Shown here piece after piece: positions 24,672 through 51,749 of a stretch of DNA of 64,000 nt. Source of the stretch: Clostridia bacterium. GTDB taxonomy: Bacteria > Bacillota > Clostridia > Acetivibrionales > DSM-27016. Both the position numbers and the translations under genes were made by a program. Every line of letters begins with the position of its first letter. Position 1 is the stretch's first letter. The notes below the pieces were generated by a model. That model saw only the letters and a list, made by a program, of their open reading frames with translations. It did no database searches and was not told the DNA's origin. Where the stretch lies: assembly GCA_026414765.1 (NCBI GenBank), contig JAOAIJ010000019.1:1-64000 (forward strand). Direction: 5' to 3'.

Positions 24672-27600
24672 ATGCCAAGCAAATATGCAAAAGAAAGAGA
24701 GGCACTAAGGCTATCTAGTGCCAATAATATTTCTAAGTATGATACAGAAAGAAATAAACTAAAAAATTCAGATGTAAGTAAATATGATGCAGAACGGAAA
24801 CAAATTAAGCAACAGACTAAGCCGGAGCAATCCGGCTTTTCTCCTGTTGAAAAAAGTCTTAAAGTAGAAGAAGTAAAGTCAAAAACTAAAATAACGCCTA
24901 ATATGATGGGTGATTACTTTGTAAATAATAAGACTACTGAGCAAGTATCCAAAGAAAAAAACACCACGCAAAACAAGGTAAAGTCATTGCTTACACCTGA
25001 AGAATACAATTCACTTCCTAAATACGGATATTTACCAGGGCAAACACCTGTTAAAACAAGGAATTTTTTAGGCATTGAAACAAAAGAAGGTAAGAAAGCA
25101 AGACAAGAATTAGACACTTGGTCAAAAAAATATCCTGAAGCATATTCAAAACTTAATAGCTATGATTTATCTAATAAAGATTATTCTAAATCAGATGCTG
25201 CAATACTTAGCTTTGGGGATGCTGCAACATTAGGAGCCGCAAGTACACTAGCAAATACTCTTTATAAAAATAATATGCCTGCCGGCACTGAAAATTTACA
25301 AATTGATCCTATGCAAAAAGCCAAAGAGCAACAGCCAGGTGCATATACAGCAGGCACATTATTAGGTTATGTTACACCAGGTTCTCTGGCTACAAAAGGC
25401 ACAGGTATGGTAGCAAAACCTATTATTAAAAAAATATCTTCTAATATAGGCAAAAAAGCTGCTGAAGGTGCAATTGCAGGCGCAGGATTAGAAACTGTTG
25501 AAGGTGTAATTCGTGGTGAAAGTGCTGCAAATATAGGTAAACGTGTTGCTGCTGGTGCTGCTTTAGGTGCTGCAGGAGATGTGGCAGCGTATGGTATAGG
25601 TAAAGGAATAAAAATAATAGCAGATAAAATAAAAACTGGTAAATTACATACATCAGCAGAAAAAGAAACAGTAAAAAATACGCTGATAGATGATGCCATA
25701 CCAGACACAAAAAAATATATAGCGACTAAAACTACTAAACCAAATACAAACATTAAGAATGTCTCACAAAAAGGCTATACATCATTAATTGATGATTTGT
25801 ATCCTATTAGCAAAACAAATGATGAAGCCTACATAAAAGCTTTGAATTCTAGGCAAGCTGACATGATAGCTCATAGATCATTGACTACTGGATTAGTTAA
25901 TAAAAACGGTGAAGTAGTTGGTAAAAGCTTGGCAGACATTACTAAAAGCATTCCAAAAGGCTTAGAAAATAATTTTGAGGATTATCTAATTAATAGGCGT
26001 GCTTCTTATTGGATGGAACAAGGCAAAAAAGTATTTCCAGACGAAGCAAAAATGACACCTGAAAAGTCCAGGGCTAAAGTTGCAGAATATGAGGCAATGC
26101 ATCCGCAATTTAAACAGTTAGGTGATGAGTATATAAAATATAACCAAGACTTAACTAAGACATGGCTTGTAGACTCTGGAATAATATCTCCTGAAGCTTT
26201 TGATAACATGGTAAAACTTGACCCGGATTATGTCCCGTTTCAAAGACAATTTGAAGATATTGAAAAGGGAGCAGGCATTTTTGCTAAAAAAGGATTTGTA
26301 AACCAGAAGAATCCAATAAAAAAAGCTACAGGAAGTCAGAGAAAAATAATTCCTCCAATAGAGTCTACAATACAAAAAACAGGCCAGTATATAAAAGCTG
26401 CAAAGCGTAACGAGGTTGCACAATCAATTTTAAATGATGTTCGTATGAATCCGGAAGAATATAGTGGAATAATTGAAATAGTTCCACCAAAAACAGCAAG
26501 CTTATCTAATGACGCAATAACTGATATAAACAAAATACTTCAAGAAGAAGGTATTGACGGACTAGTTAATAAGTTTAATGAGCCTTGGGAACGTCAACAA
26601 TTCTTTGCAAATAGAGGTGGAGCTATAGAAAGCGGCGCAAATATTGTTACTGTAATGGAGAATGGCGCACCAGTGCATATGAAAGTTAACGACCCTGATT
26701 TACTAAAGGCTTTGACAAATCTTAATCCGCAGCAAGCAACTGCAATTATTAGGGGTGTTGGTAAAATCACTGGTATGATGAAAACATTAACAACCGGTAT
26801 TAACCCTGTGTTTGGATTAGCTCGCAACGTGTGGAGAGACTTGGCGACTGGTTATATAAACAGTAAGACAATTGGCATGAATCCATTAGGGTATGCACAA
26901 TATTTATGGGACTTGACTAAGGCTATAGGGAATACAATAGCTGAGCCTTTAGGACGTTCAAAACTATTACCAGAAACATTTCAGGAACTTTTTGCCAAGG
27001 GTGGCGAACCTATGGCATACTTTAAAAATATAGGTGGAGGTGGGCATGTATCTTCTATATCAAGTGACAGAAACTTACTTGCAAAAGCTAAAGCAGACAT
27101 ATTGCCAAAATCAAATTTAAGAAAAGTGGCAAGTGTTCCAGGCAAAATCTACAGAGGAATAGAAAGTTTGAATAATACTCTTGAAGTTGCACCAAGGCTT
27201 GCCGAGTTTAAGCGTAATATTAAAAATGGAAACAGCATTGATAAGGCATTGTTTGAGTCGCAAGACCTGACTGTAAATTTTAGCAGAAAGGGAAACGTAG
27301 CAAAAGAAGCAGATGCGTTTATACCTTATTTAAACGCTGCATTACAGGGTTTTGATAAAGAAATTAGGGTATACAATCCAATGCGGGGGAATGGCAAAAA
27401 TGCGCTAAATTCATTAGTAAAATCTGTATATGCTATTACTATTCCAACAATGATACTTTACGCTATGAACCATGATGACACTGACTATAAAATGTTAAGT
27501 GACTATCAAAAAGACAATTACTATAACATACCAAAAGGTGACGGAACTTTTTGGAAAATACCAAAGCCAAGAGAAGCAGGTGTAATTTTTGGGGCGCTTA

Positions 27601-28253
27601 TAGAAAGACTATTGCGATCATTTAAAGACAATGACCCTCAAGCATTTAATAGGTTTGCAGATACTATAAAACAGAATTTTAAGCCACCAACAGAGCCAGT
27701 GTTTATGCCAGCATATGACATATGGTCAAGTCCTGAAGGTAAAGATTGGAGAGGAAATCCTATAGTTAATCAAAGTATGTTAAAGCTTTCACCAAGATAT
27801 CAATATGACGAAAATACAAGCGAGCCTGGAAAGTTTATTGGAAACCTGTTTAATATATCTCCAAAGAAGATAGATGCAACCGCGAAATCGTACCTTGGTG
27901 GAGTAGCGCAGCTTGGTTTACCAGCTACAACAAAAGGTAAAAGTGTAATTGATACTTTAAAATCTCAGTTTACAGTGGACCCGGCTTACAATAATGACAT
28001 TATGAATGATTTTTACAATAAGCTTAATTCGTTAGAGATTAAAGCTAATGATAAGGATTTTCTATCAGGTGTATCTGGTAAACTTGACACAAGACAAACA
28101 ACGTCTGAAGAAAAAGAAGTCAGCATAATGAGAAAGTACAAAAAACAAATTGATGATATCAATAAAATAATTAAGGCAACTGATAACATTGAAGAAAAAC
28201 GCAGATTAAGGTTACAAATGTTACAGATTGCTAAACAAGCATTAGAGGGCTAA
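24672..28253 (+). CDS. Large ejection protein with LPD38-like domain
   Basis: 1,193 residues. The N-terminal 150 are charged; about 175-320 holds Ala/Gly-rich, glycine-zipper hydrophobic segments (AAEGAIAGAGLETVEGVI, KRVAAGAALGAAGDVAAYG) that could enter a membrane. A central helical region (about 380-720) is followed by a part similar to large polyvalent protein-associated domain 38 (VFGLARNVWRDLATGYINS onward, about 715-980). The C-terminus is charged. It is probably the main DNA-ejection protein. AAGGAGATGAT precedes it, and it follows the 483-residue protein closely. Confidence 0.7.
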   Translation: MPSKYAKEREALRLSSANNISKYDTERNKLKNSDVSKYDAERKQIKQQTKPEQSGFSPVEKSLKVEEVKSKTKITPNMMGDYFVNNKTTEQVSKEKNTTQNKVKSLLTPEEYNSLPKYGYLPGQTPVKTRNFLGIETKEGKKARQELDTWSKKYPEAYSKLNSYDLSNKDYSKSDAAILSFGDAATLGAASTLANTLYKNNMPAGTENLQIDPMQKAKEQQPGAYTAGTLLGYVTPGSLATKGTGMVAKPIIKKISSNIGKKAAEGAIAGAGLETVEGVIRGESAANIGKRVAAGAALGAAGDVAAYGIGKGIKIIADKIKTGKLHTSAEKETVKNTLIDDAIPDTKKYIATKTTKPNTNIKNVSQKGYTSLIDDLYPISKTNDEAYIKALNSRQADMIAHRSLTTGLVNKNGEVVGKSLADITKSIPKGLENNFEDYLINRRASYWMEQGKKVFPDEAKMTPEKSRAKVAEYEAMHPQFKQLGDEYIKYNQDLTKTWLVDSGIISPEAFDNMVKLDPDYVPFQRQFEDIEKGAGIFAKKGFVNQKNPIKKATGSQRKIIPPIESTIQKTGQYIKAAKRNEVAQSILNDVRMNPEEYSGIIEIVPPKTASLSNDAITDINKILQEEGIDGLVNKFNEPWERQQFFANRGGAIESGANIVTVMENGAPVHMKVNDPDLLKALTNLNPQQATAIIRGVGKITGMMKTLTTGINPVFGLARNVWRDLATGYINSKTIGMNPLGYAQYLWDLTKAIGNTIAEPLGRSKLLPETFQELFAKGGEPMAYFKNIGGGGHVSSISSDRNLLAKAKADILPKSNLRKVASVPGKIYRGIESLNNTLEVAPRLAEFKRNIKNGNSIDKALFESQDLTVNFSRKGNVAKEADAFIPYLNAALQGFDKEIRVYNPMRGNGKNALNSLVKSVYAITIPTMILYAMNHDDTDYKMLSDYQKDNYYNIPKGDGTFWKIPKPREAGVIFGALIERLLRSFKDNDPQAFNRFADTIKQNFKPPTEPVFMPAYDIWSSPEGKDWRGNPIVNQSMLKLSPRYQYDENTSEPGKFIGNLFNISPKKIDATAKSYLGGVAQLGLPATTKGKSVIDTLKSQFTVDPAYNNDIMNDFYNKLNSLEIKANDKDFLSGVSGKLDTRQTTSEEKEVSIMRKYKKQIDDINKIIKATDNIEEKRRLRLQMLQIAKQALEG

Positions 28254-28329: not shown

Positions 28330-28698
28330 ATGCATGAATGTACACAACAAGAAGTTATAAGTGAAATAAGGGAATTAACTAGAGAGCTAAAAACGAGAAA
28401 CGAGTATTCAGCTAAACATGAAGAAAAAATGGATAAAATGGTGGAGGAACTTGTTAGAGCGCGGGAAGATCACGACAAACGCATAACGGCTCTTGAAGTA
28501 CTCCCGGGTAAAGTAAGTCAGTTAATTGATGATGAAACTATTAACATTAAGCGACTAGGCAAAGACAAAGTTCAAAAGCATATGTCAACTGGCCTGCTTA
28601 TAGTAATCATATTATCATCTTTAACCCTAGTTTCTGGTGTAGTAGGTACTTTATATGTTTTCTTAAATAAGGTAATACAGATTATTCCAACAAAATAA
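28330..28698 (+). CDS. XhlA-like lysis accessory protein
   Basis: 122 residues: a charged coiled coil (EVISEIRELTRELKTRNEYSAKHEEKMDKMVEEL is helical throughout) and one transmembrane helix near the end (LLIVIILSSLTLVSGVVGTLYVFL, about 93-116). This is the layout of XhlA/hemolysin-like holin partners. ATGGAGGTAAAGGG is upstream. It opens the lysis cassette with a holin (29749) and an amidase (29303). Confidence 0.65.
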   Translation: MHECTQQEVISEIRELTRELKTRNEYSAKHEEKMDKMVEELVRAREDHDKRITALEVLPGKVSQLIDDETINIKRLGKDKVQKHMSTGLLIVIILSSLTLVSGVVGTLYVFLNKVIQIIPTK

Positions 28699-28709
28699 GG
28701 AGGGTATTT

Positions 28710-29294
28710 ATGGAACTATTTATCAACATCTTATCAACAATTGTCGAGACATTATTTTTCTTTTTATTTGTTACAGTTATATGCCGTAAGAGCATGGTGT
28801 ATAACGAAGGAGAAAATTTGTTGCTAAAATTTATCTGCTCATTTTTATTGACAGTAGGGATGCTTATTCTGGTTTATATTTTTATGCCAGGGTACAGGGT
28901 ATTTATTGCTATACCTATAATTGCATTAATACTATGTTTAAGCTATAGCCGTATAACATGGGCTAACTTAAGTAACTACGTATTGGCTACGGCTTTAACA
29001 GTGTTAGGGTCTGCGTTAATCGAAAGTTCATATGTATTTTTGTATATGATTCTTAAGAGTATAACAACTTTTTCAACTGCTGAAATGTTTATTTTAAGTA
29101 TTCCCGAAAGGATAATCCAGTATACAGTGCTTGGTATAGTAGCGTATAAATGTTATCAAAAAGACTATCCAAAGCCAGTAATGAAAGCTATGAGCATTGG
29201 AATAACTGCATTATCTTCAAGGGTTGCTTTATGGCCTTCTATGCTTTGGCTATATCAACCTAAAGAGCCAAAATCTATAAGAAAGTTTAGTTGA
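28710..29294 (+). CDS. AgrC-sensor-like membrane protein fused to an AgrD-like pheromone precursor
   Basis: 194 residues. About five hydrophobic helices (roughly 5-25, 37-60, 62-80, 88-116, 134-149) resemble the membrane sensor half of AgrC-like proteins, but no kinase follows. Residues 160-194 instead match an AgrD-type precursor: an amphipathic stretch (MSIGITALSSRVAL), a five-residue core S177-MLWL-181 with Ser as possible lactone residue, and the charged tail YQPKEPKSIRKF. Clostridial AgrD proteins end similarly (core, then H/Y-QP-x-xPKSL). An internal ATG at 29184 has no clear ribosome binding site, so a fused product is likely. No AgrB gene is visible. Confidence 0.6.
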   Translation: MELFINILSTIVETLFFFLFVTVICRKSMVYNEGENLLLKFICSFLLTVGMLILVYIFMPGYRVFIAIPIIALILCLSYSRITWANLSNYVLATALTVLGSALIESSYVFLYMILKSITTFSTAEMFILSIPERIIQYTVLGIVAYKCYQKDYPKPVMKAMSIGITALSSRVALWPSMLWLYQPKEPKSIRKFS

Positions 29295-29302
29295 GGTGTA
29301 TT

Positions 29303-29746
29303 ATGCGAAATAATCCAAAATCTATAATAATTCACCATAGCCTTACTAAGGATGGTAAGGTTGTAGACTGGACCGCTATAACCAAATATCATATTGAACA
29401 TAATGGATGGAGCAACAACGGATATCACTGGGGTATAGAGCGTGTCGGTGATAAATGGGTAATACAGAAAGGCCGTGCAGAAAATGTACAAGGAGCCCAC
29501 ACCAAAGAACAAGGTATGAATGTAAAGTCTATCGGTATATGTGTAGTCGGGAACTACGACATTGACGATCTGCCTAAACAGGCGTTTGATTTACTTGTCA
29601 GCCTGATAAAGGATATAAACAAGCGGTACAAGAAGTCATTCCCTATAGAGTCACATAATAAATATGCTAAATATAAAACATGTCCCGGCAAAAAATTTCC
29701 TCTTAAAAAACTTATAAATGCTGTATATCAGAAAGGAGCTGCTTAA
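29303..29746 (+). CDS. N-acetylmuramoyl-L-alanine amidase (endolysin)
   Basis: 147 residues from ATG 29303 with TGAGGTG upstream. It is an Amidase_2/T7-lysozyme-like catalytic domain: zinc ligands His11 or 12 (IIIHHSLT), His118 (ESHNKY) and Cys127 (TCPGK), with Tyr41 and Lys125 at the usual supporting positions. No separate cell-wall-binding domain is present. It cleaves the amide bond between muramic acid and L-alanine. It lies between the Agr-like gene and the holin. Confidence 0.85.
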   Translation: MRNNPKSIIIHHSLTKDGKVVDWTAITKYHIEHNGWSNNGYHWGIERVGDKWVIQKGRAENVQGAHTKEQGMNVKSIGICVVGNYDIDDLPKQAFDLLVSLIKDINKRYKKSFPIESHNKYAKYKTCPGKKFPLKKLINAVYQKGAA

Positions 29747-29748
29747 CT

Positions 29749-30000
29749 ATGGATATTATGCAGTACATAACTAAAGAAGCTTTAATACTTATCCCTGTAT
29801 TGTGGGTAATAGGCTATATAATCAAGTCTATCCCTAATATAGCTAATTGGATTATTCCTATTGTTGTGATTGTCCTAGGGGCTATTTTGGGGCTTGTAGT
29901 AGTATCACAAGATGTTAATGGAGTAATACAAGGGATACTTGCTGGTGCTGCTTCAGTAGGGTTAAATCAGGTAAAAAGACAGGCCGAAAAACAGACATAA
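29749..30000 (+). CDS. Phage holin
   Basis: 83 residues with two transmembrane helices (ALILIPVLWVIGYIIKSI and WIIPIVVIVLGAILGLVVV), a short loop, and a basic C-terminus (KRQAEKQT). This matches the phage holin family common in Clostridia and Listeria phages. AAAGGAGCTGC is upstream, in the last codons of the amidase. It would permeabilise the membrane and release the endolysin. Confidence 0.8.
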   Translation: MDIMQYITKEALILIPVLWVIGYIIKSIPNIANWIIPIVVIVLGAILGLVVVSQDVNGVIQGILAGAASVGLNQVKRQAEKQT

Positions 30001-32705: not shown

Positions 32706-32782
32706 TGGTGTACCCAAGAGGATTCGAACCTCCGGCCTGCGGTTTAGGAAACCGACGCTCTATCCTGCTGAGCTATGGGTAC
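32706..32782 (-). tRNA. tRNA-Arg (anticodon CCT), prophage attachment site
   Basis: The minus strand folds as a cloverleaf: acceptor GTACCCA with TGGGTAC, D-arm GCTCAGCAGGATAGAGC, anticodon loop TTCCTAA with anticodon CCT, T-arm GGAGGTTCGAATCCTC, and an encoded CCA. The tRNA is complete and its 3' end faces the prophage, so the phage presumably restored the 3' part on integration. The attachment core would be within the T-arm and acceptor; the other copy lies outside the window. Confidence 0.85.
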
Positions 32783-39703: not shown

Positions 39704-39800
39704 GCATCTCAATACAAATATAGTAAAAAAATAGTGGATAAATTGTTGATTATTGCCGATATAATTTACATATTATGTGGATTATTCGGGGGTCTTTATT

Positions 39801-42800
39801 ATGCCAAAAAAACTCAGAAAAGTAATGGCAGCATGTATAGCATTGATATACGCAGTCTCAATTATTACAAGTACTGTATATGCCGCACCTTCAGATATTT
39901 CAGGGCATCCTGCTGCAAGCACTATAAACAGGTGGATAGCAAAAGGGCTTGCAAAAACTCAGTCTGATGGTAAATTCAAACCTAACGAGATCATCAAGCG
40001 AATTGAATTCATTACTTTTATTAACAAAGTTTTTAATTTTACTGAAAAAGCAAAGATTAATGTTGTTGACGTTATATCCGGCTCGGATGATGGCAATGAA
40101 GTTGCAAAAGCCGTAGCAGCCGGTTATTTGCAGGCAGACGGCAAGAAAAAGGTATATCCCTACCAGCCTGTTGCAAAAGCTGATGCTGCCGTAATGCTGG
40201 CAAAGGTATTTGACTTGAAATCCTCAAATACCAGCAACCTGAATAAATACTCCGATTCCGATAAAATTCCCTATTCAAGCAAAGAAGCTATAAGTGCCTT
40301 AGACGAGAAGGGCTATATTTCCGGAAGCTCTGACGGCAAGTTTTCACCATGGAGCAACTTAACCAGAGCGGATGCGATAGTTATTATCGATAAAATTATC
40401 GGTGACCTCTTTAACGCAAAGGGTACATATAAGGGAAGCTATAAAGGCAATGTAGTCGTAAGTGCAGAAAGTGTTAACCTGAAAGATACGGTGATAGAAG
40501 GTGACCTGTATCTTACAGAAGGAATAGGTGACGGTGATGTTACCCTCGACAAAGTAACGGTAAAAGGAAGAACCATAGTCCGTGGAGGAGGTAAGCACAG
40601 CATAATCATCAGGAATTCCTCTCTATGGGGACCTGTTTCCGTTGCAAAAAGGGATGGTCTTATAAGGCTTGTAGCGGAAGGTACTACAAATATATATAAT
40701 GTCCAGCTTAATTCCGGTGCTATACTTGAGGAAAATGGAGTAAAGACTGCGACAGGATATAAAGGCTTTGAAGAAATACAGATAAACAGGGGAATTGCTG
40801 CAAACCAGGAAATGAAATTTGAAGGTGACTTCAGCAATATAAATATTGAAGCAGCTTCCGTAAATATACAGGTTGATGGCACTGTAGGGAAATTACAGCT
40901 GAGGGAATCCGGAGAAAATACGATCATAAAAGTAAGAAGCGGAACTGTAAGCGAACTCCTTACACAAGCTGATAAGACTGTAATAGAAGCTACAGGAGGT
41001 ACCATAACATCTCTGAAGGTAAGCAATACTGCGGCAGCCTCTACAGTTACAGTTGATGGGGCAAGTGTAGGAACTCTTGATGTTCAGGCAAGTTCAAATA
41101 TAAATATTAGCAATGGTACTATAGGTACTTTTAATATGCACAGCGGAGCATCAGGTTCTACAGTATCTATAGGAAAGGATGCCCGTGTTCCGTCTTTCAG
41201 TACTTCGGGAGTGGCAGTCAGGGACAACAGGACGATTACAACCGGCAATTCTACACAATATATATCCATAAGTGCACAGAATCTGACGGTTACAAAAGAC
41301 AATGTAGCAGCTGCAGTGGTAAATGTAACGCCCGTTGATGCCGTATTGAACTATAACTCTCTCAACCCGGCTATTGCCACTGTTAATCCGAATAATGGGG
41401 TAGTAAAGGGTGAAAGCCTTGGAACTGCCACAATTATCGTTACAGCTACAAAAACAGGATATACTACCGTAAGCACCACATTTACCGTAACAGTCAACGC
41501 TGTGAATAATAATCCTACAGCAGCCGGTACCTTGCTGGTTTCACCTGCGAATGCCAACAGAAGTGCAGTACAGAGTGTTACTTTATCATATACTCCCGGA
41601 GAGGCCTTGAGTAATGGTACGGTTGTGTTTACGCTGCCCACAGGCTTTACAGCATCGACAAGCGATACTGTCAGTATAGCAGGGGGGACAGCTGCAAGCC
41701 TTAATGCGTCACAGATATCAAACAGCGGTTCCACAATTACTATCACGGGACTCAACCTCACAACAAGTCAGACTGTGGTGGTTACTCTGGTAAATAAAAC
41801 GATTCCGGCAGCAAATAACTACACCTTCAGTGCTGCAGCTGATGCTGACGGTACTGGTACAAGAGGACCCTCATCAGGCTCTGGAAATGAAACAAAGATA
41901 TTCACATCAAATAGTGTGACACTGACACTGCCGGGCTCACTTGTTATTTCGCCTGCAAGCGGGGCAGCAGGTTCGACACAGGATGTTACACTCACATACA
42001 CGCTTGCTGAAAGCATGAACAGCGGTTCGGTAGTATTCACACTGCCTTCAGGTTTTACGCCGAATGCAGGCGACATTGTCTATGTAAATGGAGTGACTAC
42101 AAGTGCAATAACCATAGTAGGTCAAACTGTAACAGTAACAGGTGTAACAGCGGCATCGGGGCAGAATATAGTACTCATACTGGATGGCAGGACCGTACCT
42201 GCTGCAGGGAATTATGATTTCAGAGCAGTAGCTGATGCCGATGGTGTTGGCGGGACAAAAAACCCGAGTACAGGAACAGGCAGTGAAGCTAAAATATTTA
42301 CATCCAATACATCGGTTGCTCCCTCTGTAATAACTGCGGTAAATGCCACGGTTGACAGTGACTTTAATCTGACGTTTACGGATAATCCTGCATGGAGAAA
42401 CGGCATTACGGTAATTACGGTCGGAGGAACTGCACTTCCATCATCTGCCTACAGTATAACAAGTGCGGGAAGTATCACGCTAAAACCGTCACAGAGCCTA
42501 TTATTGCAGACACCAGGAACAAAGACGATTTCTATTTCATCTACTAACTTTGCCTCTGTAACCGTGAGTCAGGTGATTGCTCATGGAGCTGCAAAGAACA
42601 TCGTTATAACAACTCAACCCACAGCACCTGCTTCAAATGGCGGGGTTCTGGCAGCACAGCCTGTACTGAGGCTCAAAGACCAGTATAACAATGACTGCAG
42701 CACTGATAATACGACACAAGTAAATATATCCAGAGGAGATGCAGGCAATTGGAGTATAGGTGGAATTACAACCGTTTCAGCAGTGAATGGAACTGTAACC

Positions 42801-45800
42801 TTCTCTGATCTGACTGCTTCAAGTTCGATCCAGGTATCCGGTGCCAGACTCAGATTCAGCAGTACCGGGCTGGCAGATATGTTTTCAAATACATTTACCG
42901 TTCCAGCACCTTCTATAGTTGTGACGCCAGCTGCAAACGCTACAGTAGACGGAAATTTTGATATTACATTTGCGGAAAATGCAACATGGAGAGCTGCAAT
43001 TACTGCTGTTAGTGTCGGGGGTACGGTACTGCCTGCGGGTGCATACGACATTTCCAGTGCAGGGAGGATAACACTGCGACCTTCACAAAGTACACTTTTA
43101 CAGTCTTCGGGAACTAAAACGATTACTATTACAGCTGCAGGCTTTGCAGTGGTCAGCATAGATCAACCGATAAAGCACGGGGCTGCAACCAGGCTTGATA
43201 TTCAAGTGCAGCCACAGCCTCCAACCGCCAGTGGCACGCAGCTTTCCGTTCAACCTGTCATTAGAGTGCTCGACCAGTACAATAATATTTGTTCCACAGA
43301 CAACACCACACAGGTAGTTGCAGCAAAAGGTGACGGCGGCACATGGACATTAGGCGGGACACTAACTGCAACAGCAGTAAATGGAACAATTTCCTACACA
43401 AACCTTACTGCTGCCAGAAATGCGCAGACCGATAATGCATATATAAGGTTCACAAGCGGATCATTAACGGCTGCTAATTCCAATACCTTTACAATACTTG
43501 CCAACACGGGGAACGAGACTGCAGCTGTAACAAGCCCTGCAAATAACTCATATTCCAATGCTGACCTGACGACAATCACTGGTACTGCCACCAATACAAA
43601 CTCTGATTTGGTAAAGGTAGTCGTTCGCATAAAGGACAATGCAACCCAGAAATACCTTAGTGCCAACAACGGTGGATTGTTTAGCAGCAATACACCAGTT
43701 GACCTTACGGTTTCCGGTACTACAAGCTGGACTGTAACACTGAGCAGTATAAGTTTTTCAAATGGGAACTATACAATAGAAGCAATAGCCAATGACGGAG
43801 CAAATGGATTGACAGCTTTTTCGGTATTTACAATAGATAAAGCTGCTCCTTACAGAATTAATGCAGTTGCTTCCCAGCAAAACACAATTACAGGGAATAA
43901 TGGATACATTACATTAACTACGGTTAATGACCCGTTGTCGAATGCAACATGGATTAATATATTAAACGAAATAAAAGCTCATACAGCAGTAACTTCCGGC
44001 AGTTGGATCAGTGGTATAGATCCAAGCTATCTTGATATAGATCCCTCGGCTGATGGCGTGACTGCCAAGCTTATAAACAAAGACAGTGGCAATGCGGCTA
44101 TTGTTGCGGACTTTGTGATACCTGCAGCCAGAGTAGCAGATAGAGCCGGGAATGTAGCTTCAGGAAATATTACCATTGATGCCTATATCGGCGCTCCTGA
44201 GGTGGCAAGCATCACTGCTGCCGAAGGAGGGGCTGCTGAGCATGGCATAGGGCCCGGGGATACGCTGACAATAGTATTCAATGTAGCAACAAACAAGGCC
44301 GCAGCTACAGTGTATGCAGATAAAAATGCAGTTGATGCGGTAATCAATTGGGGAAGCAAATCCTTCGGTTCGGCATATACAGGTAACTGGACAGATAACA
44401 GGACATTGGTCATAACGTGCTCTAACGGGTCTGGGGCAACATTTATGGTAGGAGATACAATAGTAATAAAATCAGGTGCAGGAATAAAAACGCAGGACGG
44501 GTTGTCTGCTGCAAGCAGCGATACCAGTGAAGCAAGTACAGGAACCTTCAATCCTGCCCCAGCAATAGTAAGTATTTCAGCAGCAGAGGGAGGCCCGGCT
44601 TTGGATGGATTGGATGCCGGTGATACCATTACGATAAAGTTTGATGTAGCAACAAACAAGGCCGCAGCTACAGTGTATGCAGATAAAAATGCAGTTGATG
44701 CGGTAATCAATTGGGGAAGCAAATCCTTCGGGACTTCTTACTCGGGACAATGGACAGATAATAAGACACTTGTAATAACGTGTATAAACGGCTCGGGAGC
44801 TACCTTTGCAGTAGGAGACACAATCACAGTTAAAGTGGGGGCGGATATCAGAACTCTCGATGGAACTTCTCCGGCAAGTACTGATACAAGTGATCCAAGT
44901 GAGGGAACTTTTGATCTCATACCGCCTGCTCCTGTTGTATTGAGTATTACGGCAGCCGAAGGAGGGGCATCAGAGCATGGTATAGGGCCTGGGGATACGC
45001 TGACAATAATATTTGATACAGCAACAAACAAAACTGCAAGTACTTCCTACGCAGATAAGGCGGCAGTAGATACTGTTATTAACTGGGGAAGCAAATCTTT
45101 CGGGACATCATATACAGGGGTATGGACAAATAATACAACACTTGTAATAACATGTACCAACGGGGCGGGTGCTACTTTCACGATAGGCGATACAATTACA
45201 ATCAGGTCTGGTGCTGGGATAAAAACGCCGGACAACCTATCCCCTGCGAGTAATGATATCAGTGATGCGTGTACGGGAGCATTCAGCCCGGCGCCCGTAA
45301 TCGTGAGCGTGACAGCAGCAGAAGGCAATCCGGGCTCAAATGGATTGGATGCCGGTGATACCATTACAATAGTGTTTAATACAGCAACCAATAAAACTGC
45401 AGCAGTAACTTATGCGGATAAAGCTGCTGTAGATGCAGTAATAAACTGGGGAAGCAAATCCTTTGGCTTGTCTTATACGGGAGCGTGGACAGACAACAAG
45501 ACTCTGGTAATTACTTGTACGGATGGCTCTACAGCAGATTTTGCAGTAGGAAATACCATAACAATAAAAGCCGGAGCAGAAATAAAGACTTTGGATGAAT
45601 CCTCGCCCGCATCTACGGACACAAGTGATGCTGCAGAGGGGACTTTTGATCTTATACCTGCTGCTCCGCTGATTACGAGTGTAACAGCAGCAGAGGGAGG
45701 AACGGCTGAACATGGAATTGGTTCCGGCGATACGCTGACTATTGTGTTTAATGCAGCGACAAATAAGACCGGTGGTACATCATATGCAAACAAAACGGCA

Positions 45801-48800
45801 GTAGACGCAATAATCAACTGGGGCAGCAAGTCATTTGGCAGCGGATACACAGGGGCATGGACCGATAACAGAACTCTGGTAATAACCTGTACAAATGGAT
45901 CAGGGGCTACATTTACCGTTGGAGATACCATTGCAGTAAATTCAGGAGCTGATATTAAGACTCAGAATGGTCTGTCATCAGCAAGTACCGATACTAGTGA
46001 TGCAAGCACAGGTACCTTTAATCCTGCTCCACTTATAGTAAGCGTTACGGCAACAGAAGCCGGGGCGGAGGAGAACGGCATCGGACCTGGAGATATACTG
46101 ACTGTGGTATTTGACGTAGCTACTAACAAGGAAGGTGCAACTTATGCCAACAAGACTGCTGTAGATGCAGTGATCAACTGGGGGGGGAAATCTTTCGGTT
46201 CATCTTATACAGGGGCATGGACAGACAACAAAACTTTGGTAATAACGTGTGTAGATGGTTCTACAGGGGATTTTGCCGTAGGAAATACCATTACAGTAAA
46301 AACAGGAGGGGATATAAGAACTCTTGACGGAACCTCCCAGGCTTGTACAGATGTGAGTGATGCAAGCACGGGAACTTTCAGCCCTGTTCCTCTGGCACCT
46401 ACTGTTGTAAGTATAGCAACAAACGAAGCAGGAAGTGTTATCACAATAGAATTTAATAAAACCATGGCAAACCCGTCCGGGAAACATGCTCAGTTTGGCG
46501 TGCTGGTAGATGGGACGGCGAGAACTGTTTCAGCTGCAGCACTGAATACAGACAATAAGAAGATAGATCTAACACTATCAACACCTGTAGCAGTTGGTAA
46601 TACAATAACACTTTCATATACTCCGGGGACTGTTGCGGCGGCTGACGGAGGTGCCCTTGCGTTGTTTACGGGAAGCTCTGTAACCAACAGTGTAGTGGGG
46701 CCTGCTAAAATTGCCAGTGTAAGCTCATCTGTCACCAACAATACATATGGTGCAGGTCAGGTAATTACTATAACTGTAACTTTTGATACTGCGGTTGATA
46801 TTAGTACGGTCGGGGGTATTCCGACCTTGCGAGTGGAGACAGGTACAGTTGACGAAGAAGCCAGATATATAGACGGTAATAGGACAAATGTAACTACACT
46901 TACATTTGAATATACAGTCAAACAGGGAAATAACACTGCCGATCTTGAGTATGTCAGTACAGCATCCCTTGCACTGAACGGGGCAACCGTAAAAAACACC
47001 GGAAAGGATGTAGCGGCAATTCTCAGCCTTCCTGCATTGGGATCCATATATTCTCTAGGTGGACAGAAAAATATAGCCATCGATACAACAGCCCCTGTTA
47101 ATGCCACAGGATTTCCGAAAGCAGGTACCAAGACGGAAAATACTGCGAATGTACTGGTTCAAGTAAATGAAAGCGGAAAAGCTTATTATGTAGTGCTGGA
47201 TGGGGGAGCATCGGCACCGACAGCTTCTCAGATCAAAGCTGGAAGAGACGCTTCAAATGTCAATGTGGCTAAAAAAGGAGAAATCAACCTGACAGCCGGT
47301 ATGCAGGGGACAATATCCATAACCGGACTGGATATGCTGACTTCATATGATATATATGTAGTTAGCGACGACTGGGTAGGAAACCTGCAGTCAATCCCCG
47401 GAAAGGTATCAGTAATAACTACCAATGATATAACGCCTCCGGTTATTACTGGGTCTACGGCAACACCAGGGGGTATTACTGCTGATATAGAAATCATAAC
47501 TGATGAAGAAAGCAGGGTATACTATATTGTTATGGCGGGAGGATCACCAGCTCCAACGGCAGCCAATGTAAAAGCCGGAGCAGGTGCTCTGTCAGCGAGC
47601 TTAAAGGGATATGCGGATACAGCAGGAAATAGGGCGACTATTAATTTAAACGGACTGAACGGATTAACAACCTACGATCTCTATGTAGTATGTCAGGATA
47701 ATAATAACAATTTGCAGACCACTGCAACCAGGATACAAGTTACAACAGACCTTACAGGGGTGACGGCAGATGTAGCTGCAGGAAAGCTAAGCAATACTTC
47801 AAGGAATATGGAATACAGTCTTGATTCTACAAACGGCACAAACGGCACATGGACAGGGTGTACTGACGGTACCACTACAGTTCAGTTTACTGTAGGAGAT
47901 GTTTATATAAGAGATAAGAGCAACACTGCAACCGCACGCAGAGTAGCCACCGTTACACAGCAGCCAATGCCTACCACTGCTCAGATAAACGGCATAGGCT
48001 ATAACATAGCACAGGGGACACTTACCGGAACTTTAAGTTCAATGCAGTACAGAATAAATGGTGGAGCATGGATTGACATAACCACTGGAGGAGCTATTTC
48101 CGGAATAGCATTTGCAGCAGGGGATCTGGAATTCCGCATAAAAGCTACTGCTACTACACTGGCATCACTTCCGGTAACAAAGGTGACCATTTCAGCACCT
48201 GCATCTGCGCCGTTATTAATGTATGATGATGTCGTAAATACTATTTTAGATCTGAATAGCGTTAATGAGTTGGGAGAATTTATTTACGAATACAGGATAG
48301 ACACAGGGGGATGGACATCAGGAGGAGTTACGCCTGACCTGAGCGGAACAAAGACAGTTTATGTAAGAAAGAAGGCTACAGCGACAGAACTGGCAAGTCA
48401 GGTTCAAGTTATTAACTTTACAGTAAATGTAAACCTCAATACTGTAGGCATAAACATAGCAGTCGGTCAGATATACGGTACTACTACAGCTATGGAATAC
48501 AGCCTTAATTCAACTGACGGATATAACGGAACATGGAAGCCGTGTTCAAATACCAATACAAATGTAACTTTCGTAGAGGGAAATGTATACATAAGAGCAA
48601 GTGCTCAGCGTGATAATGTAAGGCTTATCGACACCCTTACAGCACCGGCTGCACCTGCTACCGTTAGTGCAAATGAGACAGGAGGACAAAATGCGGTAAA
48701 ACTTGTCGGAGCTACTACATCGATGGAATACAGCAGAGATGGCGGGATAACATGGTACGCTGTTTCTACAAGTATTGCAGCAGGTACACAGTCGATAGAT

Positions 48801-51749
48801 GTTTCAACCGCACCAAATAATGACCTGAGGGTCAGGTTAAAGGCTACCACCACAAAGCTTGCTTCAAGATCTACCGGGAAGCTCAACAACACCGGAACGA
48901 TAGCGGTATCTCAGCAGGCAGCTCTTACAATGACCGTTGTCGGAGCGAACCAGACTATACAGTTGAGTGATATGTGGAAGATAACTGCAGCAAAGGAGAG
49001 TGTGGTTTTAGACAGTATAAAAGTGGATATATCGGGTACTATGGATACCGTAAATGTTGATAATTTAGTACTTATGTATAGTACAAACGTTGCAATCGGC
49101 GATGCAGACGATGTTCAGATAGGAACGAGCCTTAACCCCGGAACAGGGGCCTCCGAGCTGGAGTTTACAGCTTTATCAAAAACTGTTGCAGTAGGCAGCG
49201 GCTATATATATATACTCGGACAGATATCAAGTTCAGCATCGACAGGACAGAATATAGCTTTGGGAATCCCGGCAGAGGGAATTACCGCAACAGGAGTTGT
49301 TTCATCGAGAGCCATCAAGTCCACCGGGATAGATGCAGGTACGGTAGTAACCCTTGATAATACACCCCCAACGGCTGCAATAACCTATAACCTGAACCGT
49401 GCCGTCAAGTCAGGAGATACGCTGGTCATAACGGCAACCTTCAACAAAGCTATGGCAAATGCACCTGTTGTACAGATAAGCATATCGGGGGCAAATACGC
49501 TGGCGTTGACCAATATGACAAAGGTGGATGCGACACACTATACTTGCACATATACAGTTGGCGCAGGTGACGGTGCTGCAACAGTGGCTTTGGCTACAGG
49601 CACTGACTTGTCAGGTAATGTTATTACAGCTGCACCTGTAAGCGGAGCAACTTTTACAGTTGATAATACTGTTCCCGGAACTCCTGTTATTACTCTCGCA
49701 GAAGCTAAAGGAAATTCTGAAATACCGGGTTATATGAACAGTTCTAATCTTAACCTGCAGATTGATGCAAATATAAACGGCAGCAGTGCAGCAGGAGGAA
49801 GTGCGGAATTGTTGATAGACGGTGTTCCCTTCAGCACACCGGTAATTGACAGTACAATAGGTCCGATGGATACTTCCGTAAGCTTCCTGGTTGCTCCAGG
49901 TGTTATTGGACAGGGTACGCATACATTCTCAATCAGGCTGAAGGATGAAGCAGGAAACAGCGCAACCAGTATGGCTTCATCACCTGTCATAGTTGATTAT
50001 TCTTTACCGTCAAAGCCTTCAGTCTCTTATACTGTTGTTGGAGGAAGTGTAGTTGCCGGATATATAAACGATACCAATACTGGAGTTAATTTTTCGGCTG
50101 ATATAGTTGCTGGCGAAGCGACTGGAGGAACAGCAGAATTACTGCTTGGTACGACAGTAGTCGGTACACAGCCGATATCAGCAAATGATACGACTATTTT
50201 ATTAACTGTTTCAAAAGCGGTAATAGGTACTGAAGGAAGTAAAAGCTTTACGGTGAGGGTAACCGATGTGGCAGGAAACACAGTAACAAGCAATGCTATA
50301 AGCTTAGTTGCAGACTTTACTTCGCCCGGGGCCCCAACAGCTCCTTCGATAGCGGGAAACGATAATATTAAGGTTTCAGGGTATGTAAACGGAACAAACA
50401 GCCAGATTTCTGCATCATCCACCATAATTAAAGGTGATGCTGTAGGGGGACGGGCAGAATTGCTGATCGACGGTGTTTCATTCAGTGTGAAAGTACAGGA
50501 TTTGTCGATAGGCTCAAATGATATTGCAGTTTCATTGCTTTCTGCCTTTGCAAGTGTAAATGAGCTCAGGAATACAATAGATGCAGGAACTCATAAAGTT
50601 AAAGTAAGGCTGTTCGATGCAGCAGGAAATTATACGGATAGTTCCGAAACATCATTTACAGCAGACTATACTTCACCCTCAGTACCGGCTAATGTTGCAA
50701 TCAGTGCACAGGGGAACAGTGTAGTTGCCGGATACTTCAACATTTCAAATAACGGTATTGTTGCGGCTGTTGATGTTATAGCTGGTCAGGCAGAAGGCGG
50801 ATATGCGGAGCTTATAATTGACGGGCGTTCCTTCGGCACACCGATAAAAAGCAGCCTGATAGGGGCAGTTACCACTCATGTAGCCATAACATACAATTTT
50901 GCCGATCTAAATGAACTGAAAGCTTTGATACCGGCTGGTACCCATACCTTTGCAGTGAGAGTGTATACCTTAGCAGGCAACTTTGAGACAAGTTCAACTG
51001 TCAGTCTGATTGCGGACTATACAGCACCCGGCGCACCGTCATCCGTTACAATTTCCGGTACGGGAGGAAAATCAGTAACAGGATATCTGAACGGAACCAA
51101 CAATCAGATTTCCGCAAATGTAAGGATCACAGCAGGGCAAGCTACAGGAGGAAGGGCAGAATTGGTTATAGGAAGTACTGTAGTTGCAACATATAATATA
51201 AATTCAGGGGACAGTAATATAGCCATAGTATCAAATTATCTAAACAGTACACTGCTTCAGGCAGCAATACCGGATTCCGGCGCCGGCAGCGGAGAGAGAA
51301 GCTATACAGCAACTGTGAGGATAGTTGATGCAGCTGGTAACAGTGTGAATAGTACGCCTGTTTCATTTAAAGCTGATTACATAGTGCCCGATGAACCTGC
51401 AGGAGGATTTACAATTACGGCCAGCGGAGGAACTGTTGTTTCAGGACGGATAAATGAAACAAATATGTATATCAAGGTCAATAGCATAAGTATTACTTCA
51501 AATCAGGCAATCGGCGGAAAAGCTGAGTTGGTTATGGATAAGGGTACACCAGGTCAGAGGATTATTGCGGTAGATAATATTATTAATACTTCAGACACCA
51601 CCCTTACGCTAAGCTCAAACTTTTCCAATCCTGCAGCACTACAGGCGGCAATACCGGAAGGAAGCCACGAGTTTGTAATAGTACTGTATGATGCGGCAGG
51701 TAACAGTGTAGAGACGGCAGCAACAGTACTGATTGCCGATTACCCATAA
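39801..51749 (+). CDS. Giant SLH surface protein with multiple repeat families
   Basis: 3,982 residues from ATG 39801 (GGGGGTC upstream). Order: signal peptide (1-29); three SLH motifs (about 30-200); a strand-rich beta-solenoid-like part (about 205-480); a Big2-like domain (about 490-565); two domains around 570-835; two DUF1533-like domains (DNPAWRNGITVITVGG) to about 1240; six tandem 120-residue repeats (about 1468-2197) ; SwmB-like and Ig-like domains; a series of EYSLDST-type repeats (about 2650-3030); and six Ig-like repeats at the C-terminus (AELLIDGVPFS, AGNS). N-terminal SLH anchor, free C-terminus. A large adhesin, S-layer component or spacer. Confidence 0.9.
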   Translation: MPKKLRKVMAACIALIYAVSIITSTVYAAPSDISGHPAASTINRWIAKGLAKTQSDGKFKPNEIIKRIEFITFINKVFNFTEKAKINVVDVISGSDDGNEVAKAVAAGYLQADGKKKVYPYQPVAKADAAVMLAKVFDLKSSNTSNLNKYSDSDKIPYSSKEAISALDEKGYISGSSDGKFSPWSNLTRADAIVIIDKIIGDLFNAKGTYKGSYKGNVVVSAESVNLKDTVIEGDLYLTEGIGDGDVTLDKVTVKGRTIVRGGGKHSIIIRNSSLWGPVSVAKRDGLIRLVAEGTTNIYNVQLNSGAILEENGVKTATGYKGFEEIQINRGIAANQEMKFEGDFSNINIEAASVNIQVDGTVGKLQLRESGENTIIKVRSGTVSELLTQADKTVIEATGGTITSLKVSNTAAASTVTVDGASVGTLDVQASSNINISNGTIGTFNMHSGASGSTVSIGKDARVPSFSTSGVAVRDNRTITTGNSTQYISISAQNLTVTKDNVAAAVVNVTPVDAVLNYNSLNPAIATVNPNNGVVKGESLGTATIIVTATKTGYTTVSTTFTVTVNAVNNNPTAAGTLLVSPANANRSAVQSVTLSYTPGEALSNGTVVFTLPTGFTASTSDTVSIAGGTAASLNASQISNSGSTITITGLNLTTSQTVVVTLVNKTIPAANNYTFSAAADADGTGTRGPSSGSGNETKIFTSNSVTLTLPGSLVISPASGAAGSTQDVTLTYTLAESMNSGSVVFTLPSGFTPNAGDIVYVNGVTTSAITIVGQTVTVTGVTAASGQNIVLILDGRTVPAAGNYDFRAVADADGVGGTKNPSTGTGSEAKIFTSNTSVAPSVITAVNATVDSDFNLTFTDNPAWRNGITVITVGGTALPSSAYSITSAGSITLKPSQSLLLQTPGTKTISISSTNFASVTVSQVIAHGAAKNIVITTQPTAPASNGGVLAAQPVLRLKDQYNNDCSTDNTTQVNISRGDAGNWSIGGITTVSAVNGTVTFSDLTASSSIQVSGARLRFSSTGLADMFSNTFTVPAPSIVVTPAANATVDGNFDITFAENATWRAAITAVSVGGTVLPAGAYDISSAGRITLRPSQSTLLQSSGTKTITITAAGFAVVSIDQPIKHGAATRLDIQVQPQPPTASGTQLSVQPVIRVLDQYNNICSTDNTTQVVAAKGDGGTWTLGGTLTATAVNGTISYTNLTAARNAQTDNAYIRFTSGSLTAANSNTFTILANTGNETAAVTSPANNSYSNADLTTITGTATNTNSDLVKVVVRIKDNATQKYLSANNGGLFSSNTPVDLTVSGTTSWTVTLSSISFSNGNYTIEAIANDGANGLTAFSVFTIDKAAPYRINAVASQQNTITGNNGYITLTTVNDPLSNATWINILNEIKAHTAVTSGSWISGIDPSYLDIDPSADGVTAKLINKDSGNAAIVADFVIPAARVADRAGNVASGNITIDAYIGAPEVASITAAEGGAAEHGIGPGDTLTIVFNVATNKAAATVYADKNAVDAVINWGSKSFGSAYTGNWTDNRTLVITCSNGSGATFMVGDTIVIKSGAGIKTQDGLSAASSDTSEASTGTFNPAPAIVSISAAEGGPALDGLDAGDTITIKFDVATNKAAATVYADKNAVDAVINWGSKSFGTSYSGQWTDNKTLVITCINGSGATFAVGDTITVKVGADIRTLDGTSPASTDTSDPSEGTFDLIPPAPVVLSITAAEGGASEHGIGPGDTLTIIFDTATNKTASTSYADKAAVDTVINWGSKSFGTSYTGVWTNNTTLVITCTNGAGATFTIGDTITIRSGAGIKTPDNLSPASNDISDACTGAFSPAPVIVSVTAAEGNPGSNGLDAGDTITIVFNTATNKTAAVTYADKAAVDAVINWGSKSFGLSYTGAWTDNKTLVITCTDGSTADFAVGNTITIKAGAEIKTLDESSPASTDTSDAAEGTFDLIPAAPLITSVTAAEGGTAEHGIGSGDTLTIVFNAATNKTGGTSYANKTAVDAIINWGSKSFGSGYTGAWTDNRTLVITCTNGSGATFTVGDTIAVNSGADIKTQNGLSSASTDTSDASTGTFNPAPLIVSVTATEAGAEENGIGPGDILTVVFDVATNKEGATYANKTAVDAVINWGGKSFGSSYTGAWTDNKTLVITCVDGSTGDFAVGNTITVKTGGDIRTLDGTSQACTDVSDASTGTFSPVPLAPTVVSIATNEAGSVITIEFNKTMANPSGKHAQFGVLVDGTARTVSAAALNTDNKKIDLTLSTPVAVGNTITLSYTPGTVAAADGGALALFTGSSVTNSVVGPAKIASVSSSVTNNTYGAGQVITITVTFDTAVDISTVGGIPTLRVETGTVDEEARYIDGNRTNVTTLTFEYTVKQGNNTADLEYVSTASLALNGATVKNTGKDVAAILSLPALGSIYSLGGQKNIAIDTTAPVNATGFPKAGTKTENTANVLVQVNESGKAYYVVLDGGASAPTASQIKAGRDASNVNVAKKGEINLTAGMQGTISITGLDMLTSYDIYVVSDDWVGNLQSIPGKVSVITTNDITPPVITGSTATPGGITADIEIITDEESRVYYIVMAGGSPAPTAANVKAGAGALSASLKGYADTAGNRATINLNGLNGLTTYDLYVVCQDNNNNLQTTATRIQVTTDLTGVTADVAAGKLSNTSRNMEYSLDSTNGTNGTWTGCTDGTTTVQFTVGDVYIRDKSNTATARRVATVTQQPMPTTAQINGIGYNIAQGTLTGTLSSMQYRINGGAWIDITTGGAISGIAFAAGDLEFRIKATATTLASLPVTKVTISAPASAPLLMYDDVVNTILDLNSVNELGEFIYEYRIDTGGWTSGGVTPDLSGTKTVYVRKKATATELASQVQVINFTVNVNLNTVGINIAVGQIYGTTTAMEYSLNSTDGYNGTWKPCSNTNTNVTFVEGNVYIRASAQRDNVRLIDTLTAPAAPATVSANETGGQNAVKLVGATTSMEYSRDGGITWYAVSTSIAAGTQSIDVSTAPNNDLRVRLKATTTKLASRSTGKLNNTGTIAVSQQAALTMTVVGANQTIQLSDMWKITAAKESVVLDSIKVDISGTMDTVNVDNLVLMYSTNVAIGDADDVQIGTSLNPGTGASELEFTALSKTVAVGSGYIYILGQISSSASTGQNIALGIPAEGITATGVVSSRAIKSTGIDAGTVVTLDNTPPTAAITYNLNRAVKSGDTLVITATFNKAMANAPVVQISISGANTLALTNMTKVDATHYTCTYTVGAGDGAATVALATGTDLSGNVITAAPVSGATFTVDNTVPGTPVITLAEAKGNSEIPGYMNSSNLNLQIDANINGSSAAGGSAELLIDGVPFSTPVIDSTIGPMDTSVSFLVAPGVIGQGTHTFSIRLKDEAGNSATSMASSPVIVDYSLPSKPSVSYTVVGGSVVAGYINDTNTGVNFSADIVAGEATGGTAELLLGTTVVGTQPISANDTTILLTVSKAVIGTEGSKSFTVRVTDVAGNTVTSNAISLVADFTSPGAPTAPSIAGNDNIKVSGYVNGTNSQISASSTIIKGDAVGGRAELLIDGVSFSVKVQDLSIGSNDIAVSLLSAFASVNELRNTIDAGTHKVKVRLFDAAGNYTDSSETSFTADYTSPSVPANVAISAQGNSVVAGYFNISNNGIVAAVDVIAGQAEGGYAELIIDGRSFGTPIKSSLIGAVTTHVAITYNFADLNELKALIPAGTHTFAVRVYTLAGNFETSSTVSLIADYTAPGAPSSVTISGTGGKSVTGYLNGTNNQISANVRITAGQATGGRAELVIGSTVVATYNINSGDSNIAIVSNYLNSTLLQAAIPDSGAGSGERSYTATVRIVDAAGNSVNSTPVSFKADYIVPDEPAGGFTITASGGTVVSGRINETNMYIKVNSISITSNQAIGGKAELVMDKGTPGQRIIAVDNIINTSDTTLTLSSNFSNPAALQAAIPEGSHEFVIVLYDAAGNSVETAATVLIADYP
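44202..46390 (+). repeat. Six tandem repeats of about 365 bases in the giant gene
   Basis: Each unit encodes about 120 residues with ITAAEGG, GDTLTI, NWGSKSFG, YTGxWTDN, TLVITC and VGDTI motifs. Units alternate between two subtypes (GIGPGD...TFNPAP and GLDAGD...TFDLIP), so the array is three copies of a double unit. Bases 44281-44368 are identical to 44644-44731. Confidence 0.85.

Follow-up and report, generated by a model that had tools for sequence, protein, structure and literature searches.

A fusion of an AgrC-sensor-like membrane domain with an AgrD propeptide in the lysis cassette of a clostridial prophage

Agr genes have been reported beside phage lysis genes in the C. difficile phage phiCDHM1, where the lysis genes are followed, on the other strand, by an agr3 locus with separate agrB, agrD and GHKL kinase genes (PMC3901668). 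A different phage-encoded peptide signal is used in the arbitrium system (AimR-AimP) of SPbeta-like phages, a lysogeny switch that is based on a linear hexapeptide and a cytosolic receptor and that works via MazF (PMC10769878). In C. thermocellum, Verbeke et al. detected a cyclic pentapeptide AIP in the supernatant by LC-MS (m/z 642.3292) and reported no agr operon around the AgrD; this orphan, Clo1313_2818, is a stand-alone precursor of a Ser-lactone pentapeptide, and its peptide is proven (PMC5322536).

The gene analyzed here differs from each of these systems. It encodes a protein of 194 residues (P0001) in which a membrane half and an AgrD-like tail form a single chain. As in phiCDHM1, AgrD lies beside lysis genes and AgrA is absent, but here the cassette has neither agrB nor a kinase gene and the fusion is located inside it (PMC3901668). 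The tail is of the same AgrD type as Clo1313_2818, which is neither phage-borne nor fused (PMC5322536), and the gene would share with arbitrium the principle of a phage-encoded peptide signal, although here it takes the form of a membrane fusion in a lysis operon (PMC10769878). The AgrC histidine kinases (HPK10) have a distantly similar membrane sensor half, whereas the fusion protein contains no HisKA-like or ATPase domain. If the reading proposed below is true, Agr-type peptide signalling and phage lysis would be connected here through one gene.

The fusion gene in the prophage lysis cassette

The window, which is the whole stretch of 64,000 nucleotides that was analyzed, corresponds to contig C19:1-64000 of a 4.56-Mb clostridial genome, and its first ~32 kb are prophage. 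The features that place the gene are as follows.

4436 and 6881, small and large terminase, prophage part of the window
9255, portal, prophage part of the window
13163, head protein, prophage part of the window
24672..28253, plus strand, large polyvalent phage protein (LPD38) of 1193 aa, ahead of the lysis cassette
28330..28698, plus strand, 122-aa coiled-coil protein with one TM helix, directly upstream of the fusion gene, XhlA-like by layout only
28698..28703, plus strand, Shine-Dalgarno AGGAGG of the fusion gene, overlapping the upstream gene's stop codon (duplex -11.6 kcal/mol)
28710..29294, plus strand, fusion gene, five-TM AgrC-sensor-like domain plus AgrD propeptide, 194 aa
29293..29298, plus strand, amidase ribosome site GAGGTG, overlapping the fusion gene's stop TGA (29292-29294)
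29303..29746, plus strand, endolysin, Amidase_2 (PF01510), downstream of the fusion gene
29749..30000, plus strand, holin, Hol44 family (PF16079; phrog_1129), after the amidase
32706-32782, tRNA-Arg in the window

The 122-aa protein, the fusion, the amidase and the Hol44-type holin form a tight lysis operon right after the LPD38 gene, which bears out the original prediction that the gene lies within a phage lysis cassette. That prediction had named an XhlA-like protein and an amidase as its neighbors. Both genes are where it put them, but the name XhlA is a matter of layout, as an XhlA profile search of the 122-aa protein gave no match. For the amidase, a start at TTG 29291 in a mechanical ORF list was rejected in favor of ATG 29303, which has a ribosome site. 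The phage has no close relatives in viral contigs or in the host's order, and phage records resemble it at less than 30% identity only. Beyond the prophage, the window contains a 3990-aa ORF (39777-51749) whose start is signal-peptide-like.

The position of the gene between a one-TM protein and the amidase and holin, together with its five TM helices, would suit a membrane protein that times lysis, of the antiholin or signal-arrest kind, in which the AgrD part tunes topology or serves as a sensor contact rather than as a pheromone. We regard this as very improbable. The protein matches no holin, antiholin or other lysis family in Pfam or PHROG, the cassette has a holin already, and the full conservation of the ring core and the AgrB-recognition tail would be left unexplained.

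The Shine-Dalgarno sequence of the fusion gene is the strongest among the four cassette genes. Within the gene, no Shine-Dalgarno sequence precedes the AgrD part at Met158 or Met161; the duplex at Met158 amounts to -1.1 kcal/mol, whereas five host AgrDs that were compared gave -5.3 to -9.3 kcal/mol. With no ribosome site there, an internal start at Met158 was rejected. Because the AgrD part, unlike those five, has no ribosome site of its own, it seems to be produced solely as a piece of the fusion, to judge from these translation signals.

The AgrD domain and the membrane half

The C-terminal domain and its parts are located as follows.

29181..29285, plus strand, AgrD domain, residues 158-192 (TIGR04223 positions 7-38)
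29238..29252, plus strand, predicted ring core S177-M-L-W-L181 (cyclic lactone, calculated [M+H]+ 631.327)
29253..29291, plus strand, post-core recognition tail YQPKEPKSIRKFS, which begins Y182-Q-P-K-E-P187-K-S

The last 35 residues had been described as AgrD-like, with an SMLWL core from Ser177 followed by YQPKEPKS, and the sequence reads exactly so. The pattern of a Cys or Ser ring core followed by H/Y-Q-P-x-x-P-K is present as S177-MLWL-YQPKEPK, and the Y, Q, P and second P of the tail are invariant across the AgrD alignment. A profile match of the C-terminus, which the original prediction had named among its checks, was obtained with TIGR04223 (quorum_AgrD; curated cut-off 19 bits), which scores 21.2 bits at residues 158-192 of the whole protein and 26.5 bits (E 5e-6) against the 38-aa tail alone. 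An independent profile of 15 other AgrDs, with the fusion protein left out, gives 29.0 bits (E 2.7e-7). The whole-protein score lies only 2 bits above the cut-off, as a chance resemblance might, but we give such a resemblance next to no credence. The independent profile contradicts it, and so does the joint match, in that the homologues of the other half are the very proteins whose genes adjoin agrD elsewhere. A TIGR04223 scan of 14 control genomes at E<=0.01 produced no match in any of them, and hence chance is not a serious explanation.

The layout is not the canonical one of a separate short ORF with its own start, since the AgrD is fused in a 194-codon ORF, and its leader is ~5 residues shorter than in the host paralogues. 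The protein does not match AgrB (PF04647), and the cassette contains no agrB. Thus, by its profile matches, the fusion contains an AgrD domain without being a canonical AgrD gene, and it counts neither as an AgrC nor as an AgrB.

The membrane half is described by two features.

28710..29159, plus strand, membrane domain (residues 1-150) with five predicted TM helices, of which the profile matches residues 10-144
29097..29120, plus strand, family hallmark SIPERIIQ, residues 130-137, at TM5

The helices are predicted at residues 2-28, 36-58, 62-78, 84-115 and 123-149 in a low-confidence structure model (pLDDT 53.6). A profile built from 34 family members, with the fusion protein left out, matches residues 10-144 with 22.8 bits; the N-terminal half alone scores 21.0 bits, which none of 4000 local shuffles reached (best shuffle 11.5 bits). 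The family motifs are (S)IPEE in TM1 and SLPERxxQ in TM5, the latter conserved at P in 32, at R in 30 and at Q in 26 of the 34 members. The fusion protein keeps SIPERIIQ, while its TM1 motif reads TIVET and has lost the proline, which may mean that the receptor-like half is altered. Outside the family, the highest scores in the fetched loci belong to AgrC-type kinases (24.4 bits for the host AgrC, then 19.4 and 16.5), which makes the family AgrC-sensor-like even though it lacks a kinase. No DHp or ATPase domain was found in the fusion protein with Pfam, and the ORF ends after the AgrD part. On profile evidence, therefore, the membrane half is homologous to a kinase-less, AgrC-sensor-like family that has no Pfam model, in line with the earlier suggestion of a sensor-like half without a kinase. 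Fold searches against PDB and BFVD with models of the fusion and of a viral 7-TM relative (pLDDT 67.5) gave no significant match, and a sequence search of solved structures returned chance matches only.

Full-length family members appear, in our reading of the predictions, to contain seven hydrophobic segments, with a short tail in the cytoplasm. The membrane half of the fusion stops after the fifth segment and runs on into AgrD, so that TM6, TM7 and the tail are absent. This could be a deletion remnant, in which an in-frame deletion in an ancestral phage pair of 7-TM protein and AgrD took out the intergenic region along with TM6, TM7 and the tail and left an intact but functionless chimera. 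The shortened leader and the missing TM1 proline are in keeping with such an event, as are the facts that the fusion is the single known case and that every other family member and its AgrD are separate genes. However, short 5-TM proteins of 151-180 aa stand alone directly upstream of agrB-agrD in three other genomes.

L144 2514-2969, stand-alone 5-TM short version
L146 3019-3546, minus strand, stand-alone 5-TM short version
L149 3337-3879, minus strand, stand-alone 5-TM short version

These cover profile positions 6-165 and the fusion protein reaches position 160; the membrane half thus ends where they end, which argues that TM1-5 is a natural unit and makes a random truncation less likely. 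The 194-codon ORF has also stayed intact at ~27% identity to the nearest host homologue, the ring core, YQPKEPK and SIPERIIQ are all preserved, and the gene is tightly packed behind the strongest ribosome site of the cassette. On balance we consider a remnant rather unlikely, if deserving of some weight. A viral scan using the short 5-TM proteins found nothing.

No second fusion of receptor-like protein and AgrD was found among the ~155 AgrDs of the host's order that were among the matches listed, among ~17 viral modules, or among the AgrDs listed for 391 genomes of the class; in all of these listings, rare cases with weak matches could be missed. The fusion has no relatives in phages, viral contigs or GTDB contigs and no significant ones in its family; a class-level search with it gave 13 weak matches (E 5e-4 to 9e-3), many of which cross stop codons. 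Long open frames at the AgrDs of five genomes (G160, G413, G411, G252 and G111) looked like fusions but were rejected as stop-free agrB overlaps or AgrDs with their own ribosome site. Separately, at L144 2971-3780 an AgrB frame of 269 aa continues stop-free into AgrD; the AgrD start is preceded by an A-rich run and a ribosome site, and the arrangement is either a fusion or a lost stop. Our search, which covered the open literature and few subscription papers, turned up no account of either the kinase-less pair or the fusion. What is new here, as far as the genomes compared indicate, is the fusion itself, while the receptor-like protein and AgrD are paired widely, in modules of two or three genes.

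Agr components of the host and a hypothetical mechanism

In addition to the fusion, the host genome encodes six AgrDs, five of which are directly preceded by a membrane protein of 270-312 aa without a Pfam match. Only the AgrD on contig C47 belongs to a classical agrBD locus, in which AgrC and a response regulator are also encoded.

C25:33874, C12:37081, C52:158682, C18:35919 and C43:264839 of the host genome G000 (L013-L017), five AgrDs, each directly behind a kinase-less AgrC-sensor-like protein

AgrB had been said to be absent in cis, as it is, and the search of the host genome revealed two agrB genes (contigs C17 and C47), with His and Cys seven residues apart in both. The C17 AgrB is a candidate processing enzyme for the orphan AgrDs, and with two AgrBs encoded in the genome the suggested hijack of a host AgrB is feasible.

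We now put forward a hypothetical mechanism, in which we place middling confidence, whereby the fusion is a prophage-borne, single-chain version of the clostridial kinase-less AgrC-sensor-like/AgrD module that would be matured by host AgrB during lysis-gene expression. The fusion would be translated along with the late lysis genes, and its five TM helices, with the leader facing the cytoplasm, as the positive residues after TM5 suggest, would present the AgrD part to host AgrB. The latter, acting in trans, would remove the YQPKEPKS tail and close the Ser177-Leu181 lactone. As AgrD is fused to the membrane half, the ring would stay on a 5-TM anchor unless there is a second cut, and we propose that the SMLWL ring is then cut off its membrane anchor. 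The freed ring could act as an AIP on the host's AgrD/receptor modules or on other lysogens, and a peptide signal would thereby be coupled to the late phase of the phage. It is doubtful, though conceivable, that the membrane half binds a cyclic peptide, whether its own or that of siblings or the host, so that the start of lysis is tied to a population signal, again with host AgrB maturing the peptide.

The same components would also serve a decoy or inhibitor, where host AgrB is taken up by the fusion, or the host modules are blocked by its AIP or by its receptor-like half, silencing host signalling at lysis. Five host modules and two AgrBs are available as targets, a membrane-anchored AgrD could hold AgrB, and in the membrane half both a kinase and the C-terminal part of the receptor-like protein are missing. 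We think this quite improbable, as the sequence gives no means of telling an inhibitor from a substrate.

The paired module in the host's order and in viral contigs

Among 58 genomes of the host's order, the family occurs in 35, AgrD in 53 and AgrB in 50, and for at least 43 of the fetched AgrDs a family member is the next gene upstream. The three genes stand in one row, agrB-7TM-agrD, in G026, G137, G202, G243:C63, G295:C19, G402, G407 and G427:C72, where the receptor-like gene lies between those of the processing enzyme and the pheromone. Both components of these pairs are homologous to those of the fusion and follow the same order, and they have in common with it a Ser or Cys ring core, a YQPKxPK tail and the SIPER/SLPER motif. 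They are, however, separate chromosomal genes that keep TM6-7 and the cytoplasmic tail, in contrast to the one ORF in the phage lysis operon that is without both.

One of the pairs leads to the C. thermocellum peptide.

L114 (G349:C1:2570000-2573500), AgrD with predicted AIP SFFIF and an upstream family member

The AgrD of G349 has the core SFFIF (calculated [M+H]+ 642.329), with a family member directly upstream, and its S25, F29, Y30 and P35 and its mass agree with the C. thermocellum AIP (PMC5322536). Since this AgrD corresponds to the detected peptide, the pairs include at least one that produces a real AIP. Tracing the fusion also reveals a widespread receptor-like family paired with AgrD, whose member at this locus is a candidate partner for the orphan, so far receptor-less C. 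thermocellum cyclic peptide, as judged by gene order.

The kinase-less receptor-like family is also found in an operon with AgrD, PemK and AgrB at what seems to be the lysogeny locus of SPbeta-like viral contigs.

L119-L123, L126-L137 and L139-L141 (IMG/VR), contigs with the 7TM-AgrD-PemK/MazF-like-AgrB operon

By the family and AgrB scans, 15 viral contigs (12 distinct) carry 7TM-AgrD-PemK-AgrB in that order, many of them with a second 7TM gene. A YopQ-like gene follows the module in all 15, and then an MrpR-like gene in every case where the fetched DNA reaches far enough; the corresponding place before yopQ-mrpR in phage phi3T is taken by the arbitrium genes aimR-aimP-aimX. The contigs are metagenomic, and a terminase search in three of them gave one weak match. 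From this gene order, they seem to carry an Agr-type circuit at the SPbeta lysogeny locus, along with a MazF-like protein, and this may be a cyclic-peptide switch between lysis and lysogeny in SPbeta-like phages. Agr homologues in SPbeta-like phages receive one sentence in a 2025 review (PMC11945551), so that agr genes in these phages may not be entirely new. As no match to an MrpR-like protein was found in the host genome, the window phage is placed outside the SPbeta-like group. The AgrB on host contig C17 (L019 5391-6044), an orphan near the contig end, is 36% identical to the viral AgrB of L122.
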